DNA from: a virus
Length of the DNA stretch: 22,221 nucleotides
Reading direction: 5' to 3' (one strand)
IMG/VR virus record: IMGVR_UViG_3300044301_003845
Span: 1-22,221 of that record
Positions within the stretch are counted from its first letter, which is position 1. Every line of letters starts with the position of its first letter. The position numbers and the translations under genes were made by a program. Positions 1 to 12,355 of the stretch are shown here, in pieces. The notes below the pieces were generated by a model. It did not search any database. It was not told the origin of the DNA and saw only the letters and a list, made by a program, of their open reading frames with translations.

Positions 1-1121
1 AATCTTACACCAAATGTTACTTTATTTAAAGTATTTAGTGGCGATGTAACACCTACTGAGAATGAATTAGCCCATATATTAAGATACATTTTAAGTAATG
101 TTATATTGCCTTGGAATAATGCTGCAAATATATCAGTACCTAATTCACCTAAACATATATTACCATTACCATACGTGTTGAAATGATTTATCATATTAGT
201 TTCACCATATCTATCAGCAGTATATACAAATGGATGCTCTAATCCATATAAATATGGAAATTTATGAGCTACTGTACCAACAAATTCAGTTTTAACCATA
301 TGTTGACCTTTTGATATTCTGCGATGATTTGTTACTAATGTTATTAAATCTACTGTAAAACATACTACTAATTTACCATAAGGTAATTCAGCATATTGTG
401 TAGTCATATCAGCATTAGTTACATTTATTTTAACATCATCTAATAACACTCTAATATTAACAAACCATTTACCTGGATTAATTTCTCCAAAATGGTCATA
501 CTTAATATCATTAGCGTGGTCTACATTTTCATACATAACTGTATTCCATACTCCAACCATTTCATTATTATCATCAATTTCAGGATATAATCTGCCAAGT
601 CTATCAGAACCAGCGTCACTATATTCACCACGATATCCTCTTAATGTTCTGCCATAATGTGGAATAGTGCTAATCTCTACTTTAACATTATCATATCCTG
701 TTGTAAAACTATTTAACAGTTCATATAATAGACCTTTTGCTTCATTTAAGTCATCATCAGTATAAAGCTCTGTTCCATCTTTTCGATAACGATATAACAT
801 TCCATCAAGAGTATCTAATGAATCTTGGAAATTTTGATATCTCCAATTATTTCTTTCTAATAGTTTATGAATACTATTAGCTCCACGTCTTTTCTTCCAA
901 TGTGGATATAATATATTGCTAATATTATCTTTTATTTTATTATATGTTCCTGGTTGCCATCTAGCAGTTTTAGTAGCTACTAAATCCATTTCATATCTTT
1001 CATTAAAAGCTAATAACTTTTCTGAAAACTCAGCAAATCCTGATAATTGTTGATAGTCTAAATGATTTAAATCTAAATCAGGCGTCTCTGGTTTTGCTGT
1101 AAAATCAAATGAATATTGCAT
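1..1121 (-). CDS. E2-like (ubiquitin-conjugating fold) protein, C-terminus cut by window edge
   Basis: The frame is open from an ATG at 1121 to the left edge, giving at least 373 residues. The start follows a good ribosome site (AAAGGAGT, about 8 bases upstream). The N-terminal ~220 residues are charged and unrecognised. The later part looks like an E2 core: a strand-rich stretch, then HKFPYLYGLEHPFVY (about 286-300), then NHFNTYGNGNICLGEL (312-327). His313-x-Asn315 followed by Cys323 reproduces the eukaryotic E2 arrangement of HPN with the catalytic Cys eight residues after the Asn, and the ICL and GEL positions also match. A helix follows, then SPLN. By family knowledge such a protein would take an activated ubiquitin-like protein onto the Cys; the role here is inferred. 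It lies just downstream of a Ubl gene, so the two probably work together. No E1 or JAB peptidase is visible; they would lie past the left edge if present. Fold confidence rests on motif reading, not on a profile search. Confidence 0.66.
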   Translation of the reverse strand, partial: MQYSFDFTAKPETPDLDLNHLDYQQLSGFAEFSEKLLAFNERYEMDLVATKTARWQPGTYNKIKDNISNILYPHWKKRRGANSIHKLLERNNWRYQNFQDSLDTLDGMLYRYRKDGTELYTDDDLNEAKGLLYELLNSFTTGYDNVKVEISTIPHYGRTLRGYRGEYSDAGSDRLGRLYPEIDDNNEMVGVWNTVMYENVDHANDIKYDHFGEINPGKWFVNIRVLLDDVKINVTNADMTTQYAELPYGKLVVCFTVDLITLVTNHRRISKGQHMVKTEFVGTVAHKFPYLYGLEHPFVYTADRYGETNMINHFNTYGNGNICLGELGTDIFAALFQGNITLLKMYLNIWANSFSVGVTSPLNTLNKVTFGVR

Positions 1122-1350
1122 TTTTATTTACTCCTTTATTTATCTCAGGGGAGATTGTATCACACATCTATCTCGATAGGAAAGGATAAGTATCCCCCCT
1201 GATGTATTCTAGTATTAATCAAATAAGCTGATTAGGGATTGAGGAAGTGACTTGACTATCTATTGCTAATTCTCCATTGCTGGACCATAGCTCAATGTAC
1301 TGTGCTTTTTCTCATACCTAAAAGAACCTTATTTGTACCCAATGTGATAA
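1122..1350 (-). promoter_or_regulatory. Structured leader or intergenic element before the E2-like gene
   Basis: This 229-base gap has no gene. Near the E2-like start, 1145-1155 pairs with 1192-1202 (11 positions). The one imperfect pair is A-C on the plus strand but G-U on the minus strand, so the RNA form fits the leftward transcript. Inside are small hairpins CTAT-CGAG-ATAG and GGAT-ACTT-ATCC (minus strand). The 3' arm ends 23 bases before the start codon and has no U-run, so a leader structure is more likely than a terminator. The remainder (about 1204-1350) shows only weak inverted repeats and no promoter I would defend. Confidence 0.4.
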
Positions 1351-1608
1351 TTACTGATTACCACCTCTTTTGTTACCTGCAACATGAACAACTCTATCAT
1401 CTTCAGCAACTGGTGTTGAATCAGAAGAATCAACATCATTAACACAAATATGACCTGTTAATCCTAACTCTTCTCTTAATGCGCCAACTGTGTTAGCTTC
1501 ATTGTTTTCTGTTGCTGCCATTACTACTCTTGTTGGTTGTAATGTCATTGTACCATTCATTAGTTGAATAGTTGTTTCTGTTGTAGTTACTACTGTTTCT
1601 GTAGCCAT
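1351..1608 (-). CDS. Ubiquitin-like (beta-grasp, ThiS/MoaD-type) protein ending in Gly-Gly-Asn-Gln
   Basis: An 85-residue protein. After a Thr-rich first strand pair (about 6-32), TVGALREELGL (40-50) forms the expected helix. Then HICVNDVDSSDSTPVAEDDRV (53-73) follows the ThiS/MoaD pattern of 'VN...T.l.dgD.V', and the chain closes with VVHVAGNKRGG (73-83). Gly82-Gly83 sits at the place of the conjugating di-glycine, with only Asn-Gln after it, like a precursor that a peptidase would trim. The pattern and size are seen directly; the Ubl call is inference from family knowledge. The gene starts two bases after the stop of the 57-residue gene upstream and precedes the E2-like gene on the same strand. 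Unlike ThiS or MoaD it has no thiamine or molybdopterin genes nearby, so a protein-conjugation role is more likely. A weak GAGAG ribosome site lies upstream. Confidence 0.66.
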   Translation of the reverse strand: MATETVVTTTETTIQLMNGTMTLQPTRVVMAATENNEANTVGALREELGLTGHICVNDVDSSDSTPVAEDDRVVHVAGNKRGGNQ

Positions 1609-1609
1609 T

Positions 1610-1783
1610 TTATTTACTCTCTTTCTCGCTTTTATGCGAACTATGAGAACTATTGTTCTCGTGATTAATCAATAATATGCTAGATGCCATATCTACCATA
1701 TTCACGTGTTCTTCTTTATTATATTTCAACTGTTCAAGCAATTTCTTACCTTTCTCAGTCAAGCCATATAATTTTTCTGACAT
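1610..1783 (-). CDS. Small hypothetical protein (57 aa)
   Basis: The ATG at 1783 follows a strong GAGGAGG ribosome site, and the stop (1610-1612) lies just before the Ubl start, so the two are translated as a pair. The N-terminus SEKLYGLTEKGKKLLEQLK resembles the last helix and wing of PadR-like winged-helix proteins, but the protein is too short for a full domain. The C-terminal third is Ser/His/Lys rich and probably unstructured. No function can be assigned; its position makes it a possible accessory of the Ubl/E2-like pair. Confidence 0.65.
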   Translation of the reverse strand: MSEKLYGLTEKGKKLLEQLKYNKEEHVNMVDMASSILLINHENNSSHSSHKSEKESK

Positions 1784-1785
1784 AC

Positions 1786-1980
1786 TTAATCCTCCTCTAT
1801 TTGTATGTTCATTTTATCTACTAAAAATAACAATACCGCTATTTCAAAGAAATCATCATGAGTGACACCTTCAGCATTATCTATAATAATTAACGCTTTC
1901 TGTAGTGTTTTATTATTCATTTTATCTACTTTCTTCTTAAATACGTGATATTGTTCCATTACACTTACTATTTTTTCCAT
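1786..1980 (-). CDS. Small hypothetical helical protein (64 aa)
   Basis: The start at 1980 follows AAGGAG, which lies inside the last codons of the HNH gene upstream. The stop is two bases before the start of the next gene, so it belongs to a coupled run HNH - this gene - 57-aa gene - Ubl. The protein is predicted mostly helical, with a hydrophobic stretch FFEIAVLLFLVDKMNI near the C-terminus that looks amphipathic rather than membrane spanning. No family recognised. Confidence 0.65.
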   Translation of the reverse strand: MEKIVSVMEQYHVFKKKVDKMNNKTLQKALIIIDNAEGVTHDDFFEIAVLLFLVDKMNIQIEED

Positions 1981-5943: not shown

Positions 5944-6027
5944 ATGCCTTACGGACCAGGAACTTACGGTAGTAAAAAGGGAAGACCTAAAGCAAAGGTA
6001 GTTAAAAAGAAAAAGAAAAAGAAGTGA
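5944..6027 (+). CDS. Tiny basic protein, PYGPGTYGSKKGRPK type (27 aa)
   Basis: The product begins MPYGPGTYGSKKGRPKAK and ends in a run of lysines. Very short proteins with an MPYG.GTYGSK.GRP start are common near structural or packaging genes of aquatic phages, without assigned function. The stop overlaps a GTG start of the next gene (GTGA). Confidence 0.6.
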   Translation: MPYGPGTYGSKKGRPKAKVVKKKKKKK

Positions 6028-6131
6028 TTCCAGACTGGATTAAGCTATTTATTGAATTATGGGCTTTTTTGTCTGCATTAGCAGTGGTTTTAATACTTAT
6101 CTATCTAATTATCATAGAATGGAAAGATTAG
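6024..6131 (+). CDS. Single-pass membrane peptide, holin-like (35 aa)
   Basis: A GTG start inside the stop of the gene before it (GTGA) opens a 35-codon gene: VIPDWIKLFIELWAF then SALAVVLILIYLIIIEWKD. The central ~24 residues are fully hydrophobic and flanked by charged residues, so a one-pass membrane peptide is clear if translated. With the lytic-transglycosylase-like gene 150 bases downstream it may be a small holin or lysis accessory (inference). The stop TAG overlaps the GTG of the next gene. Confidence 0.55.
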   Translation: MIPDWIKLFIELWAFLSALAVVLILIYLIIIEWKD

Positions 6132-6289
6132 TGGGTAATATACAATTATTAACTTTAAGGGAATGGGCACGTAAACATGGGGTAAATAACCCGTATTCTG
6201 ATGAATATGACTATATTACGGCATATAAGCGCAATATTAGCCCTGATAGTAATGGTAAATGGCCAAGATTGGAGAATAATGGGAAATAA
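6131..6289 (+). CDS. Small hypothetical protein (52 aa)
   Basis: I place the start at the GTG at 6131, which overlaps the stop before it (TAGTG); an ATG upstream at 6059 would lie inside the membrane-peptide gene. The product has TLREWARKHGV and an EYDYITAYKRNISPDSNGKWP segment. This resembles the YD.rgay......GHWPD pattern of small conserved phage proteins of unknown role. Its end overlaps the next start by 11 bases. Confidence 0.55.
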   Translation: MGNIQLLTLREWARKHGVNNPYSDEYDYITAYKRNISPDSNGKWPRLENNGK

Positions 6290-6974
6290 TAAAAATATAC
6301 CTGCTTGGCAGCAGGCTGGCATTACATCTGCAAAGAACTTGCAACCAATAGTAGATGAGGCAGATTCATTAATGCAGACACTAGGTTACTCTCCTGCAGC
6401 TGATTTTATGCTAGATATAGCGGGTCAAGAGACTATATATGGTCAATTACCGCAACATATGGGGTCTTTAGGCATTACGCAAGTAGATGCAATTACTTAT
6501 AATGATTTGGTAAATGATATAAATAAGATGAATATTGACTTTCCTACAGCTCAAAAGGGCAAAGGTGCTCATGCGAAGAAGATAAATGAGTATATAAGAA
6601 GTAAAGGGGATTACTATAAAGATTTCGATATTACTAAATTAGCTACTATGAAGACGGATGCAGATGGAAATGTAGTATATTCTGACAAATCTAAGTATCA
6701 TAATGACCCATTAGCTAATTTTATGTTAACACGTATGGTTTTAAGTAGGGATAAGAAAAATAAGATTCCAACCAGTACTAAAGAAAAAGCTCGTGTTTGG
6801 AAAGAATTTTGGAATACTAAGGCTGGAAAAGGTGACCCTCAAGAGTTTATTGATAAAATTAACCTATATAGAGGTGATTCAGTAAGTCCTGTAGACTCTA
6901 CTGTAGATAAGCATAATAAGGTTAGCTCAGCTTTTGTAACTCAATTAATGGATAATCTTCGTGGCCTTGTATAA
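6279..6974 (+). CDS. Lytic-transglycosylase-like protein (231 aa)
   Basis: The start at 6279 is chosen for the GGAG six to nine bases upstream; the frame stays open to an earlier ATG at 6201, which lacks a ribosome site and would overlap the gene before. Residues 43-71 (FMLDIAGQETIYG ... GSLGITQVD) match the order of the SLT lysozyme-like motif: a catalytic Glu (Glu51) followed by S-x-G-x-x-Q-V/I. This family cleaves peptidoglycan without water, for entry or lysis. The remaining residues do not add a recognised domain, and no signal peptide is seen, so export would need a holin or virion delivery. The neighbouring membrane peptide at 6024-6131 fits a lysis module. A virion-associated role is the alternative. 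Confidence 0.5.
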   Translation: MGNNKNIPAWQQAGITSAKNLQPIVDEADSLMQTLGYSPAADFMLDIAGQETIYGQLPQHMGSLGITQVDAITYNDLVNDINKMNIDFPTAQKGKGAHAKKINEYIRSKGDYYKDFDITKLATMKTDADGNVVYSDKSKYHNDPLANFMLTRMVLSRDKKNKIPTSTKEKARVWKEFWNTKAGKGDPQEFIDKINLYRGDSVSPVDSTVDKHNKVSSAFVTQLMDNLRGLV

Positions 6975-7095
6975 AAAAGACAGATTAGATGGCAATAGGC
7001 ATCATGAGGCAGGTAAAGGTGGGGCATTACGCTTCTTTGCTGATAAGAAGTATAGAGAAAACTATGATAAAATATTTAAGAAAAAGTCTAAATAA
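6961..7095 (+). CDS. Small basic hypothetical protein (44 aa)
   Basis: The frame opens after a stop at 6946, with GTG at 6961 overlapping the end of the gene before; TTG at 6967 is an alternative. The product, MALYKKDRLDGNRHHEAGKGG and a C-terminal KKYRENYDKIFKKKSK, is strongly basic. Its stop overlaps the next ATG (TAATG). No family recognised, and no ribosome site supports the start. Confidence 0.5.
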   Translation: MALYKKDRLDGNRHHEAGKGGALRFFADKKYRENYDKIFKKKSK

Positions 7096-7163
7096 TGCCA
7101 AAATACTTATATATAGACCAGGATTACTGGGAATCTTCATATCCTTACTGGGATAATGAATAA
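7095..7163 (+). CDS. Very short aromatic peptide (22 aa)
   Basis: A 22-codon gene locked between two TAATG overlaps (7093-7097 and 7161-7165). The product is rich in Tyr, Trp and Asp (YLYIDQDYWESSYPYWD). The overlaps on both sides are the main support for it being translated; it may serve mainly to couple translation to the next gene. Confidence 0.45.
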   Translation: MPKYLYIDQDYWESSYPYWDNE

Positions 7164-7939
7164 TGTATATTATTAAGATTAAACATAAGGGGGATAAAGA
7201 AGAGACACATTATCCCATTTATAGAGAAAAGGAAGCGAAAGAACGTGGAATTGATTATAAACAATGGAAAACTGCTGATATTGGAGAACATGCACTTACT
7301 GATGACAAGTATGTGGCCACAGTGCTTTCCCGTCGCGAGTATACTGATAATACAGGTCGTAAGAATATTTACATGAGATTCCCTTTTGGGTATACGTTTT
7401 TTAGCCCAAAGCATAAAACTAAGCCTTTAAACGCTAAAGGACGCAAAACTAATGTTACTATGACTGGAAAGTCTTATTTAGAGGTTCAGTCTAAACAACA
7501 GAAGATGAAAGCATTAGCTATGATGTTTGCATTAAAGCCTGATTATGACCAGGCTATAGAGTGGGCATTAGGTGAAATTAATGATTCTCAGAAACGTAAG
7601 TGGAAGAGAACAATGAAAACGGAGATATTTCAAGGTATGGTAAGAGAAGAACTAGGTAAAAGATTAACGGAGCACGGTCTAGATGAAGACTATACGTTAG
7701 ATTTATTAAAGCAGGCTATTGAGTTAGCTCAAGATAAGAAAGATATATCAAATCTTTTAAAAGCAGTAGATAACCTTCAGGACATGCATGGTATGAAAGA
7801 AAAGCATTTACTTAAGACTACTGATACAATTGAGGCCTTTTCTAGTGTAAAGCTTATAGATGAGCTAAAAGAAGAAGAAAAAGGATTAACGGTGCAAAGA
7901 GTGCAGATTGAGGAGAAGAAGGAAGATAATGAAGAATGA
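7163..7939 (+). CDS. Putative terminase small subunit (258 aa)
   Basis: Located one gene before the large terminase. The first ~80 residues are mixed alpha/beta with basic patches. From about residue 105 the chain is mostly helical: a TerS-like helical block (KTEIFQGMVREELGKRL and TLDLLKQAIELAQDKKDISNLLKAV, then DMHGMKEKH) similar to the oligomerisation part of small terminases. The C-terminal ~30 residues are charged (EEKKEDNEE). Its role would be to recognise the packaging site and hand DNA to the large subunit. The call rests on position and helical pattern, not on a strong motif. The end overlaps the next start by four bases. Confidence 0.5.
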   Translation: MYIIKIKHKGDKEETHYPIYREKEAKERGIDYKQWKTADIGEHALTDDKYVATVLSRREYTDNTGRKNIYMRFPFGYTFFSPKHKTKPLNAKGRKTNVTMTGKSYLEVQSKQQKMKALAMMFALKPDYDQAIEWALGEINDSQKRKWKRTMKTEIFQGMVREELGKRLTEHGLDEDYTLDLLKQAIELAQDKKDISNLLKAVDNLQDMHGMKEKHLLKTTDTIEAFSSVKLIDELKEEEKGLTVQRVQIEEKKEDNEE

Positions 7940-8613
7940 CAGATTATAGCAAATACAATACTAATTTAATTTTAGACGTTGCAATGAAAGACCCTGAAAT
8001 GCCTGGTAATACGCATCCAGGATACTTTCAACCAATAGGCGAAAGAAATATAGGGCAAGAGAAGTTAGCTGCAATGGGAGTAACTCCAGAATTAGAGCAG
8101 CTAGCATTTGATATGGCAACTGGAAGCGGTGCTCCTATGGCAATAGGTAGTATAGCTAAAACAGGTAAAGGATTATTACAAAGCTATTTAAAAAAAGCAT
8201 TTTCTAAGACGCCAAGGGTTAAATCTAGTAAAGACGTATTTGAAGCAGGCAGGTTTGATATATTAAGTGACGCATATACAGGTGGTAGATTTACTCCTGG
8301 AATGTCATCAAAGACTGGTTCTGTCCCAGGAGGTAAAAGTCTAAGAAGAACAGCAGTTGACCCAATACAAGCACCTAGTGGTATTGAGAATTATTATAGA
8401 AACTTAGTATTAGAATCGGGAGGAAAAGACGGTTTAAGAAACTTTGATAATATGATTAATAGCAGGATGGATTGGATTAAACGTAATTGGGACAGTCATA
8501 AAGTAGATATGAGGTATAATAGACCTGCAGATAAATCGTTTCCTAAAGTAGGAACTAAGCGTTATCTTGAAATAAGAAATAAATTAGCTAAAGAAATAGC
8601 CTGGGATATGTAG
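7936..8613 (+). CDS. Hypothetical protein between the terminase genes (225 aa)
   Basis: No domain recognised. The first half is rich in Gly, Ala and Pro, including MATGSGAPMAIGSIAKTGKG, which is weakly hydrophobic; the second half is basic, with NYYRNLVLESGG and RMDWIKRNWDSHKVDMRYNRP. The composition fits a virion or internal protein. It overlaps the gene before (ATGA) and its stop shares a base with the GTG of the large terminase, so it is translated in the packaging run. Confidence 0.65.
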   Translation: MTDYSKYNTNLILDVAMKDPEMPGNTHPGYFQPIGERNIGQEKLAAMGVTPELEQLAFDMATGSGAPMAIGSIAKTGKGLLQSYLKKAFSKTPRVKSSKDVFEAGRFDILSDAYTGGRFTPGMSSKTGSVPGGKSLRRTAVDPIQAPSGIENYYRNLVLESGGKDGLRNFDNMINSRMDWIKRNWDSHKVDMRYNRPADKSFPKVGTKRYLEIRNKLAKEIAWDM

Positions 8614-10109
8614 TGGATTTTGAAGAAAAGTATGCTCAACTAGAAGCACTAAAGAAGATGCGGAAGAATATGGCACTATTTGGAAGATACTGCTTCCCGA
8701 CAGCCCTCCGCAAACAAACACCCCCGTTCCATCACGAGGTGTATTCTTCTTTAAAGGATGACGACACAAAAAGAGTGCTAATAGCTGCTCCTAGGGGAAC
8801 GGCAAAGAGTACTGTTACCACTCTTATTTATCCGCTATGGAGAACAGCGTTTAAGTCATCTAAAGAAGACTTGTTTATAGTTATAGTATCTGAGTCACAA
8901 GCTCAGTCTATTAACTTCTTATCACGTATTAAATATCACTTAATACATTCAGATAAGTTTAGAAGTGTATTTGGAGACCTTGGTCCTAATACTGCATCTA
9001 GATGGACTAATACAGATGTATTGCTTGCTAATGGTACTAGGATAATAGCTGTAGGTACAGGTCAAAGAGTCCGTGGTTTTATTGAAGGAGATACCAGACC
9101 TAACTTAATTATCGTTGATGACTTTGAGTCAGAGCTTAATGCATATACTCCAGAAGCACGTGCAAAGAATAGAAAGTGGATGACAGAGGCTGTTATACCT
9201 TCGCTATCAGATGATGGTAAGATATGTATGATTGGAACGGTTATATCAGAGGATTGCTTCTTATATTGGGCAAAAGATAGTACTGCATGGAAAACCTTAT
9301 GGTATTCTATATGGGATGATAATCAAAAGTCTATATGGCCAGAAAGGTTTCCTAAAGAGCGTATATTAGGAATTAAAGATGAATTTGCATCCGTAGGTAA
9401 TTTGAACGGGTTTTATCAGGAGTATATGAATATAGCGCAATCTCCTGATGATGCACCATTTAAACCTGAGTGGATTAAGATGCATCATTATAAGTTTGAA
9501 AGAAGAGATGGACAAGCATGTTTAATACAGGAGCTAGATGATGATGATGAAAAAATTATACCAGTGGATGTGTATAGTGGGGTTGACCCTGCTAGCTCTC
9601 TATCAAGGCGCGCTGACTTTTTTGTCATCGCTACCATTGCTGTTGATGGCGATAATAGGAAATATCTTATTGATTGTGTACAAAAGCGGATATCACCTGC
9701 AGAACAACCTAATGAGATTATATCTGTATATAAAAAATTCAGGCCTAAAAGGATGAAAATAGAGACAGTTGGGTACCAAGAAGCGCTTAGGACTGCAACT
9801 AAACAACTAATGCAAGAGGAGAATTTATATATTCCAGGACTAGAAAGAGGCGTTAAACCTAGAAATGCGAAATCAGAGCGCTTGCTCTCACTGGTTCCTA
9901 TTTTTGCAAAAGGCGATTTTTACTTTAGGCCTGAAGATTTAAGTGCACAACAAGAATTTCTATCTTATCCAAAGGGTAAGCATGATGATATAATGGACGC
10001 AGTATGGACTGCGTTAGATGGACATAGGGCTTGTAGGGTGAAAAAATACGTCCCACAAGACGATAAAAGCAACTTTATTAAAAAAATCCTTGACTGGAAG
10101 GTAATGTAG
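8613..10109 (+). CDS. terL: Terminase large subunit (packaging ATPase-nuclease)
   Basis: A 498-residue protein starting at a GTG that overlaps the stop before it. It has the full TerL order: Walker A APRGTAKST (59-67); Walker B LIIVDDFESE (165-174) with the catalytic Glu after Asp169-Asp170; coupling motif MIGT (206-209). The RNase H-like nuclease follows, with SGVDPASS (322-329, Asp325), Asp335, and KHDDIMDA (456-463, Asp458/459 and Asp462). It pumps DNA into the procapsid and cuts concatemers. Length is normal for the family and no key residue is missing. It is followed by the portal after 17 bases. Confidence 0.96.
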   Translation: MDFEEKYAQLEALKKMRKNMALFGRYCFPTALRKQTPPFHHEVYSSLKDDDTKRVLIAAPRGTAKSTVTTLIYPLWRTAFKSSKEDLFIVIVSESQAQSINFLSRIKYHLIHSDKFRSVFGDLGPNTASRWTNTDVLLANGTRIIAVGTGQRVRGFIEGDTRPNLIIVDDFESELNAYTPEARAKNRKWMTEAVIPSLSDDGKICMIGTVISEDCFLYWAKDSTAWKTLWYSIWDDNQKSIWPERFPKERILGIKDEFASVGNLNGFYQEYMNIAQSPDDAPFKPEWIKMHHYKFERRDGQACLIQELDDDDEKIIPVDVYSGVDPASSLSRRADFFVIATIAVDGDNRKYLIDCVQKRISPAEQPNEIISVYKKFRPKRMKIETVGYQEALRTATKQLMQEENLYIPGLERGVKPRNAKSERLLSLVPIFAKGDFYFRPEDLSAQQEFLSYPKGKHDDIMDAVWTALDGHRACRVKKYVPQDDKSNFIKKILDWKVM

Positions 10110-10126
10110 GGGTTATATTACGTTTT

Positions 10127-12355
10127 ATGGAAGAGAAGAAAAATACAAAATACGGTGAAATGACAGATAAAGAGGCTGTGGACAAGGTTCATGACCTTTG
10201 GCGTACATATTCCAAGAATAGAGACACTTGGGCAAATCATGCACAAGAAGATAAAGAATTTAGATTAGGCAAGCAATGGACTGATGAGCAACGTAAAGTA
10301 TTACAAGCTCGCGGACAAGCTCCAATAGTAGTTAATCGAATACACCCAGCGGTAGAAGCTGCAAAGGCTATGATTACAGCCAATAGGCCATCATTTAGAT
10401 GTGCTGCTCGAGAAGACTCAGATAACAAAGTGGCTCAAGTATTAAGTGCTTTATTGTCATATATGTATGACATATCTGATGGAAGGAGCGTAATCAGGGA
10501 AGTTGTTGATGATTACTACGTAACTGGCTTGGGTTATATTCACGTATACCAAGACCCTATGATGGACATGGGTAAAGGCGAGGTGCGCTTTCATAGCGTA
10601 GACCCTCTTGATGTCTATGTGGACCCTAATTCAAGGGACCGCTTTTTTGATGACGCTGAGAATATTATAATATCTCGGTTTTTTACACGTGACCAAGCCA
10701 AAAAATTATATCCTATGTATGAAAAAGCTATTGATAACGCTGAATCAGAACAATGGTCAGATAGGCCTAGTACTGAACGTAGAGATGAAGGGCAAGTTAT
10801 ATTCCCTGAAGACATAGAAACTAAAACCAATTATGGTACATTTGGTGAGAATGATGAATACGTTAGAGGATATGAATGGTATTCTAAAGAAATAGTAGAT
10901 AGATTTCGAATTTTTGAAAGGTTTTCTGGCAAGGAAGATTTGTTAGAGCAGGAAGCATTTGATAAGTATATTAATCAACCTGCATGGATTATAAACGGTC
11001 AACCAATAGTTGATGAAGAAAAAGCTAAACAGCTTGCTATGCAAGTTGAGCAACAGATACAACAGCAGTATCAAATGAAAGTCGAAGAGCTTTCTAGACA
11101 TGGAGCAAAAGTAGATGATTTGCCAACGCCTCCTAAGCCAGATATTAGACAAGTTGACTTTCAAGAGTTGATATTATTAAAGTTTATTGAAGTTGCAAGA
11201 GTTCAAGTTAGGCGAGTTCATCAATGCGTAGTAATAGGTGATAAAAAATTATATAGTAGAATTTTACCTACTGAAAATTATCCTATTGTTCCTTTTTGCA
11301 ATATACATACAAGGACTCCATACCCTGTATCAGATGTAAGAATGGTACGTGATATGCAAGAGTATATCAATAAAACACGTTCTTTAATAGTAGCTCATGC
11401 TACTACAAGTACTAATACAAAAATATTAATACCTGAAGGTAGTGTGGACATGAAAGAGTTTGAAGAGAAATGGGCACAGCCTGGAGTTGCAATTCCTGTT
11501 GATATGGATGCTGGAGCTCCTCAGCCTGTTCAACCTATGCCTCTTCCTAATGAACTCTATAAAAATGAAGCTGATGCTAAAAACGATATAGACCATCAAT
11601 TAGGTTTATATGAAATGATGCAAGGAAATTCATCAGTTGCTCCTCAAACATATAAGGCTACTATTGCGTTAGATGAGTTTGGACAAAGAAAAATTAAATC
11701 AAAATTAGCTGATATTGAAGCCAGCCTTACTCGCGTAGCAGAAGTGGCTATACCTTTAATACAGCAATTGTATACTGTTGAGAAAGTATTTAGAGTTGTA
11801 CAACCTAATAACTCTCTATCAGAGTATGCAATAAATAAAAAACTTTATGATGATAAGACAGAAGAGATTAAAATTGTAAATAATATTACAATTGGTAAAT
11901 ATGATGTTATTGTAGTAGCAGGTTCAACCTTACCTACTAATCGATTTGCTGAACTTGAGTTTTATATGGATGCTTATACTAAAGGACTTATTGATAAAGA
12001 AGAGGTTCTTAAGAAAACAGAAGTATTCGATATTGAAGGTGTATTAGAGAGGACTGATATTATTGGTCAACTACAACAACAACTTCAAGGAGCGCAAGAG
12101 CAAATTAAAAAATTAACTGGCGATTTACAAACTCGTGATAGAGAAGCTGTTAATCTTCGTAAGAGAATTGAAGTTGAGAAGTTTAAATCAGATATGGACA
12201 AAGTTAGTAATAAAGCGCAAGCTGCTAATACTGTATTTGAAAAACGACTTGATGACAATTTATCCACCATAAAAAACGACATTCGTCGTTCAATCAAAGA
12301 TAGCTCACCTCCTAAAGGTGGTACAGGAGCAGCTAAAAACAAGGAAAAAGAATAA
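10127..12355 (+). CDS. Portal protein, P22-like
   Basis: A 742-residue protein directly after the terminase, about the length of the P22 portal (725). The N-terminal half has the typical pattern RLGKQWTDEQRKVLQARGQAP then VVNRIHPAVEAAKAM, DDYYVTGLGYIHVY and HSVDPLDVYVDPNSRD, all characteristic of P22-type portals. A Gln-rich insert (about 300-320) and a C-terminal coiled coil (about 655-720) follow; the latter may match the barrel of the long P22 family portals. It forms the dodecameric ring for DNA entry and exit at one vertex. The stop overlaps the next start (TAATG). Confidence 0.9.
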   Translation: MEEKKNTKYGEMTDKEAVDKVHDLWRTYSKNRDTWANHAQEDKEFRLGKQWTDEQRKVLQARGQAPIVVNRIHPAVEAAKAMITANRPSFRCAAREDSDNKVAQVLSALLSYMYDISDGRSVIREVVDDYYVTGLGYIHVYQDPMMDMGKGEVRFHSVDPLDVYVDPNSRDRFFDDAENIIISRFFTRDQAKKLYPMYEKAIDNAESEQWSDRPSTERRDEGQVIFPEDIETKTNYGTFGENDEYVRGYEWYSKEIVDRFRIFERFSGKEDLLEQEAFDKYINQPAWIINGQPIVDEEKAKQLAMQVEQQIQQQYQMKVEELSRHGAKVDDLPTPPKPDIRQVDFQELILLKFIEVARVQVRRVHQCVVIGDKKLYSRILPTENYPIVPFCNIHTRTPYPVSDVRMVRDMQEYINKTRSLIVAHATTSTNTKILIPEGSVDMKEFEEKWAQPGVAIPVDMDAGAPQPVQPMPLPNELYKNEADAKNDIDHQLGLYEMMQGNSSVAPQTYKATIALDEFGQRKIKSKLADIEASLTRVAEVAIPLIQQLYTVEKVFRVVQPNNSLSEYAINKKLYDDKTEEIKIVNNITIGKYDVIVVAGSTLPTNRFAELEFYMDAYTKGLIDKEEVLKKTEVFDIEGVLERTDIIGQLQQQLQGAQEQIKKLTGDLQTRDREAVNLRKRIEVEKFKSDMDKVSNKAQAANTVFEKRLDDNLSTIKNDIRRSIKDSSPPKGGTGAAKNKEKE

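Follow-up and report, generated by a model that had tools for sequence, protein, structure and literature searches.

The DNA analysed here, referred to as the window, is a virus record of 22,221 bases. Its plus strand carries genes for the terminase large subunit, the portal and the major head protein, together with other phage genes. The minus strand of positions 1-1980 contains, in order of transcription, a 64-aa ORF, a 57-aa ORF, a Ubl-like ORF and an E2-like ORF, with these features:

1786-1980, minus strand: 64-aa ORF, the upstream gene, present only in the closest relatives of the window
1610-1783, minus strand: 57-aa ORF, upstream of the Ubl gene, present only in the closest relatives of the window
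1351-1608, minus strand: Ubl gene, 85 aa, putative ThiS/MoaD-type beta-grasp protein, C-terminus KRGG plus the tail NQ (...GNKRGGNQ)
1123-1222, minus strand: RNA hairpin predicted by a covariance model, in the Ubl-E2 gap and immediately before the E2 ribosome-binding site
3-1121, minus strand: E2-like gene, truncated at its 3' end by the window edge, 373 of 601 codons present, Cys323 in GNGNICLGE

The coordinates and the position of Cys323 given in a preliminary description of this sequence are right, and the Ubl and E2-like genes are, as it had stated, adjacent and on the same strand. Each of the four genes has a purine-rich ribosome-binding site. The 64-aa ORF, the 57-aa ORF and the Ubl gene are spaced by 1-2 nt, and the Ubl-E2 junction is a 229-nt gap and is not coupled. 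The ORFs are real genes, since independent viral contigs conserve both the genes and their order, at 81-95% identity for the Ubl and 53-83% for the E2-like protein.

The two small genes had been described as the beginning of the operon. They are indeed nearly contiguous with the Ubl gene; being found only in the closest relatives of the window, they fall outside the conserved core system and were rejected as members of it. No credible family was found for the 64-aa ORF in family searches, and the 57-aa ORF has a weak winged-helix match (HTH_45, E 0.0097) that is below the cut-off. Upstream of the 64-aa ORF, at 1982-2758 on the minus strand, lies an HNH-type endonuclease gene (endonuclease VII PHROG, 8e-6). 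Differing HNH genes occupy the same site in L003, L004 and L014, which suggests that it is a homing-endonuclease insertion site.

The operon does not end at the edge of the window. When viral contigs were scanned with the E2 fragment of the window, an overlapping contig, L001, was retrieved. It is 99.8% identical to the window along 8,764 bp and adds 2.67 kb on the left. This contig supplies the following:

L001 7641-9446: complete E2-like gene, 601 aa
L001 9436-10359: JAB/JAMM isopeptidase gene, 307 aa, JAMM motif HCWWHSHHTMGAFWSGTDD
L001 10349-11005: ThiF-type E1 gene, 218 aa

In L001 the E2-like gene, the JAB gene and the E1 gene follow each other with short overlaps, and a Sak4-like ssDNA-annealing ATPase comes next. 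The preliminary description had expected an E1 or JAB gene further left and had proposed a leftward extension to look for ThiF/E1 and JAB genes; both lie immediately left, at L001 9436-11005, and at this level of identity their presence is confirmed for essentially the same virus. Positions 1-1980 are probably the 5' half of a phage operon with the order Ubl-E2-JAB-E1, operating as the full cascade set out below.

Relatives were collected with a JAB-alignment scan of viral contigs, giving at least 600 candidates, of which at least 330 were confirmed and 80 kept, and gene content and order were analysed in 82 distinct viral contigs. In every one of the 53 contigs with all four genes, the order is Ubl-E2-JAB-E1 and the strand is the same. 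Where a contig reaches 3.2 kb or more upstream of JAB, both Ubl and E2 are present (52 of 52), and where it reaches 0.9 kb or more downstream, E1 is present (74 of 74). As the contigs were chosen by JAB only, the co-occurrence of Ubl, E2 and E1 is not circular. The JAB and E1 genes usually overlap or abut. An exception to the compactness of the operon is a 3.3-kb insertion between E2 and JAB in L066 and L068 (5683-8998), which breaks an otherwise tight arrangement.

The surroundings of the four genes are also constant. They lie between divergent terminase genes and DnaB, with terminase and portal upstream on the opposite strand and DnaB downstream, accompanied in one branch by Sak4 and an SSB-like protein. 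This fixed place beside replication genes across the whole clade makes the four genes a conserved module and not part of an accessory arm, where the preliminary description had put them. The phage group that carries the module is large and mostly uncultured, and the four genes resemble the ubiquitin system, with a small tag, two enzymes that would attach it and one that would remove it. A tblastn search of 50,697 phage records with three E2s and one divergent JAB of the clade found nothing; the clade is therefore without a detected annotated relative except through E1 and JAB proteins of the L001 type.

In 84,980 cellular genomes, the same JAB scan identified 8 loci, against the at least 330 JAB relatives in viral contigs. 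In six of the eight, E1 is upstream of JAB, which is a Bil-like order. A bacterial chromosome (L096) has exactly Ubl-E2-JAB-E1, and a viral-looking archaeal contig (L095) has Ubl-E2-JAB followed by the end of the contig. At most two of the 8 cellular loci resemble the phage type, one of them on a possibly viral contig. The operon in L096 (8033-11051) is in a Deltaproteobacteria MAG, and its E2 carries repeated cysteine-rich units in a C-terminal tail. L095 is binned as a Natrialbaceae MAG; its Ubl-E2-JAB genes (5981-10504) adjoin a 653-aa protein and the locus looks viral. The 653-aa protein contains a GGDFDRDQ motif, like the catalytic motif of RNA polymerase.

The Ubl is predicted to be a beta-grasp modifier with a C-terminal Gly-Gly. 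In an alignment of 34 homologues of roughly 30% identity, only G82 and G83 are invariant (34 of 34). The tail after the Gly-Gly has 0 residues in L055, L063, L070 and L089, 1-3 in most members and up to about 100 in L028, L062 and L066. An invariant Gly-Gly with a variable tail is the signature expected of a modifier precursor processed by a protease. Pfam ThiS is matched by 17 of the 34 members, at best with 1.2e-4, the Ubl of the window itself being below the curated cut-off, and the best PDB profile match is a weak one to MoaD (E 0.018). Against cellular Ubls the profile gives E 6e-6, and in a blind ranking of 455 small cellular ORFs it put three Ubl-like proteins at ranks 1-3. The Ubl ORFs of L062 and L072 and that of L028 (637-1191) have extensions of 60 to 100 residues after the Gly-Gly, like ubiquitin-extension fusions. 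The high scores of some Ubl ORFs raised the possibility of tandem (poly-)Ubl, which was rejected, as each contains a single domain.

The E1 matches Pfam ThiF (8.3e-21, above the cut-off) and also bacterial E1-E2 defence models with 1e-14. Residues G23, G25, R37, D47, K70, D112 and C172 are invariant in all 68 sequences, and C172 is the presumed thioester cysteine. At positions 55-59 (L001 numbering) most phage E1s have N-[IV]-G-V-S, compared with N-I-G-R-Q in the PRTRC E1 used for comparison. An arginine expected near the ATP phosphates therefore seems to have been lost, and adenylation may differ in detail. In the JAB, the JAMM residues E-HxH-x7-S-x2-D are all invariant (75 of 75; for the E, 73 of 73 ungapped sequences), and the match to Pfam Prok-JAB is below the cut-off at 0.0028. 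Gene content, gene order, their conservation and the invariance of the catalytic residues are direct observations. In the E1 tree, 63 E1s from viral contigs form one clade (support 91/97), those of crAss and Flavobacterium phages a second (98/97) and those of PRTRC a third (100/99); the join of the two phage clades is weak (82/29).

E2 enzymes have an HPN...C pattern, which the motif of the phage protein recalls. In the window this motif is HPF-V...GN-I-C323-L-G, and the pattern of the homologues is HP-[FY]-[VI]-x(about 25)-N-x-C-x-G. P297, C323, G325 and C391/C411/C414/C420 are invariant in the 45-53 homologues aligned and in all 53 full-length ones. The four-cysteine cluster is in the part of the protein that is missing from the window; following the E2 core, it probably forms a metal site that would bind zinc. 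An AlphaFold model from 45 homologues has a pLDDT of 86.7 and replaces an earlier one, made on a shallow alignment, with 49. Its predicted order of strands, HP motif, Cys323 and helices is that of an E2 with large insertions.

The Pfam E2 models, including UQ_con, matched none of 45 homologues of this protein, and a Foldseek comparison of the model with the PDB gave no E2 (best E 0.56). Nothing was found in the PDB by sequence either, whether the query was the E2 profile or a single E2-position protein from a cellular locus. The profile also had no significant match to the crAss protein, PRTRC_B or Bil-type E2s. It did match the proteins encoded between the Ubl and JAB genes of L095 and L096 (E 1.5e-5), which have the compact motifs HPHV-SSDG-IPCLG and HPYV-NSGG-TPCFG. 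In a blind ranking of 210 ORFs of eight cellular loci, the E2-position genes of L096 and L095 took the first two places, and two genuine UQ_con E2s (2e-14) came 4th and 5th, aligned on the catalytic Cys although not significant alone. The E2 fold is supported by motif, context and profile comparison, but it is not recovered in the PDB fold search. On balance it is likely that the protein is an E2.

It is possible, if unlikely, that the four genes instead make a sulfur carrier system. The E1 and Ubl would then form a C-terminal thiocarboxylate in the style of ThiS, MoaD, CysO or TtuB, the JAB would trim the Ubl or free a sulfur adduct, and the 'E2-like' protein would be a cysteine-dependent sulfurtransferase, with a metabolite of the phage, a nucleic acid or tRNA as the molecule to be thiolated. 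The closeness of the Ubl to ThiS and MoaD and the best NCBIfam match of the E1, which is ThiF, fit with this, as does the absence of an E2 fold from the PDB results, and the four-cysteine cluster could serve sulfur chemistry. However, the loci examined showed no rhodanese, cysteine desulfurase or sulfur-acceptor enzyme. The match of the E2 profile to cellular E2-position proteins and the high rank of genuine UQ_con E2s, with Cys323 on the catalytic Cys, also speak against it, along with the same four-component order in PRTRC cassettes, of which the B component is E2-like. The ThiS/ThiF and MoaD/MoeB pairs share the Ubl fold and the E1 adenylation domain with the phage module, but have no E2-like partner and a context of cellular cofactor biosynthesis.

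The hairpin in the gap between the Ubl and E2 genes matches its covariance model with 95 bits. There is one strong copy per genome, in the Ubl-E2 gap only. The carriers in the set searched are the window and 12 further phages, from a subclade of the relatives. The hairpin of L028 was found (E 9e-8) though this contig was outside the set from which the model was built. The hairpin has a long outer helix; two-sided (compensatory) changes are seen in 6 of 9 pairs and 94.9% of the hairpin cells are paired, against 57-70% in slid controls, counts that lean towards the model because the alignment was fitted to it. No Rfam family corresponds to the hairpin. As a guess, it may set the ratio of Ubl to enzyme.

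Bacterial operons of Ubl, E1, E2 and JAB have been known chiefly as antiviral systems of hosts and as cassettes of plasmids. A tblastn search with the E1 yielded 77 phage records, most of them from Crassvirales and Flavobacterium phages. In five of these phages (crAss001, DAC15, cr111_1, cr128_1 and FpV4) the order is primase, a protein with a Ubl-like N-terminus, an E2-position protein, JAB and E1. The E2-position and JAB genes overlap in four of the five, DAC15 being annotated without an overlap. The crAss001-type genes (gp79-gp78-gp77-gp76) and those of FpV4 resemble the clade in gene order and in overlapping or abutting genes. The crAss001-type E1 and JAB are homologous to those of the clade (JAB E 2e-9), and this module is beside a primase, a Sak4-like ATPase and a helicase, a setting of replication genes like that of the clade. 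In BFVD, the model of the window E2 has structural matches to a protein of the crAss-like phage ctDAq1 (prob 1.00, E 2e-3) and to the cr128_1 protein in the E2 position (prob 0.93). Unlike the protein of the clade, the crAss001-type E2-position protein is shorter and has no four-cysteine cluster. The crAss Ubl has a long C-terminal extension and, in the members compared, SGA instead of GG; FpV4 has SGG. With a profile E of 1e-3, its assignment as a Ubl is weaker than that of the clade. The crAss001 genes gp79-gp76 (L007 4259-8669), annotated as 'hypothetical', 'metalloprotease' and 'thiamine biosynthesis', are better read as Ubl-E2-JAB-E1.

The plasmid PRTRC cassette (ParB-E-C-F-B-A-ThiF) has the relative order C(Ubl)-F-B(E2)-A(JAB)-ThiF(E1), as in the phage module, and both are on mobile genetic elements. 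This order is seen in L106, L108-L110 and L113; L111 and L112 are without an annotated A gene. By profile, the PRTRC E1 and JAB are homologous to those of the phages (prob 98% and 93%). However, the ParB, E and F genes are absent from the phage module, where replication genes follow instead in complete contigs. The phage JAB scores 14.7 bits against PRTRC_A (cut-off 101.8) and the phage E1 17.5 bits against PRTRC_ThiF (cut-off 144.75). The phage E2 and Ubl have no match among the curated NCBIfam PRTRC models, and their profiles have no significant match to PRTRC B and C. On our reading, the PRTRC cassette is the operon type in row 6d, a bacterial Ubl-JAB-E1-E2 type, of Iyer et al. 2006 (PMC1779556).

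Bil (BilABCD) and related systems have the same four activities, Ubl, E2, JAB and E1. They differ in gene order, E1 being upstream of JAB in the Bil-like loci L097-L102, and in their E2, which is of the UQ_con type without long decorations; Bil is also cellular and antiviral, not viral. The phage module would work like the PRTRC and Bil systems and is a member of neither. Cellular operons of these four components, such as Bil and type II CBASS, act against phages, and the E1 matches E1-E2 defence models. These two points are what could be expected if the phage carried such a host defence to block competing phages, in defence between phages or against superinfection. We consider this highly improbable. 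Defence cargo usually occurs sporadically and changes from locus to locus, whereas every complete relative has the module, always at the same site next to replication genes, and there is no consistently attached effector gene, for example for a nucleotidyltransferase or nuclease.

A Ubl with a conserved C-terminal glycine (TAPI) and a JAB peptidase (TAPK) are encoded among the tail genes of phages of the lambda/T1 group, and tail pairs of this kind are the only phage cases in Iyer et al. 2006 (PMC1779556). Those of lambdoid tail assembly have been proposed to tag or process structural proteins. The existence of such pairs in lambdoid and T1-like phages (PMC1779556) lends something to the idea that the module modifies the virion itself, by tagging or processing the phage's own structural proteins or by shielding virions from host Ubl defence. 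The prospect is nevertheless remote. The tail pairs have no E1 or E2 and are in tail clusters; the window clade has both, and its module sits beside replication genes, with transcription running away from the head genes. Complete sets of cascade genes are a fixed module of many phages, beyond the tail Ubl/JAB pairs previously credited to them (PMC1779556). No paper on a complete phage E1/E2/JAB/Ubl operon was found in the literature covered, which included few subscription papers, and an earlier mention is possible.

The favoured reading is a protein-conjugation cascade. The preliminary description had called the locus a possible protein-conjugation operon; a four-gene phage operon with Ubl and E2 is present, and conjugation itself is the predicted activity. 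Its steps and chemistry are taken from knowledge of the families, and its timing and targets are read only from its place beside replication genes in two phage groups. The JAB would cut the short tail after the Gly-Gly off the Ubl precursor, and the E1 would adenylate the exposed glycine with ATP. The Ubl would then be relayed from the E1, probably through the invariant Cys172, to Cys323 of the E2, which would attach it to target proteins, the four-cysteine module perhaps being a built-in substrate adaptor. The JAB could also take the Ubl off its targets. Judging from sequence, these phages probably tag other proteins with a small protein in the course of infection. The role is most likely an early one, and the targets would be host or phage proteins that serve DNA replication, repair or takeover, as suggested by the position of the module, which is co-directional with and adjoins recombination and replication genes in two distantly related phage groups.

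A wider proposal is more speculative, and as a whole we regard it as rather doubtful. Ubl conjugation would be an old and core part of the replication programme in at least two large phage groups, the uncultivated clade and the crAss-like and Flavobacterium phages. It would combine an E2 that has a metal-binding adaptor of its own with a ratio of Ubl to enzyme tuned by the hairpin, would serve the takeover of host replication, and would be a reservoir from which plasmid and cellular Ubl systems were exchanged.

If the system works, bacterial viruses would have ubiquitin-like tagging of their own, and there would be a counterpart in viruses to the enigmatic PRTRC cassettes. With crAss001, DAC15 and FpV4 in culture, a direct test is possible. 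As the Ubl of the window ends in KRGG, trypsin would leave the Lys-GlyGly remnant that is standard in ubiquitin proteomics.
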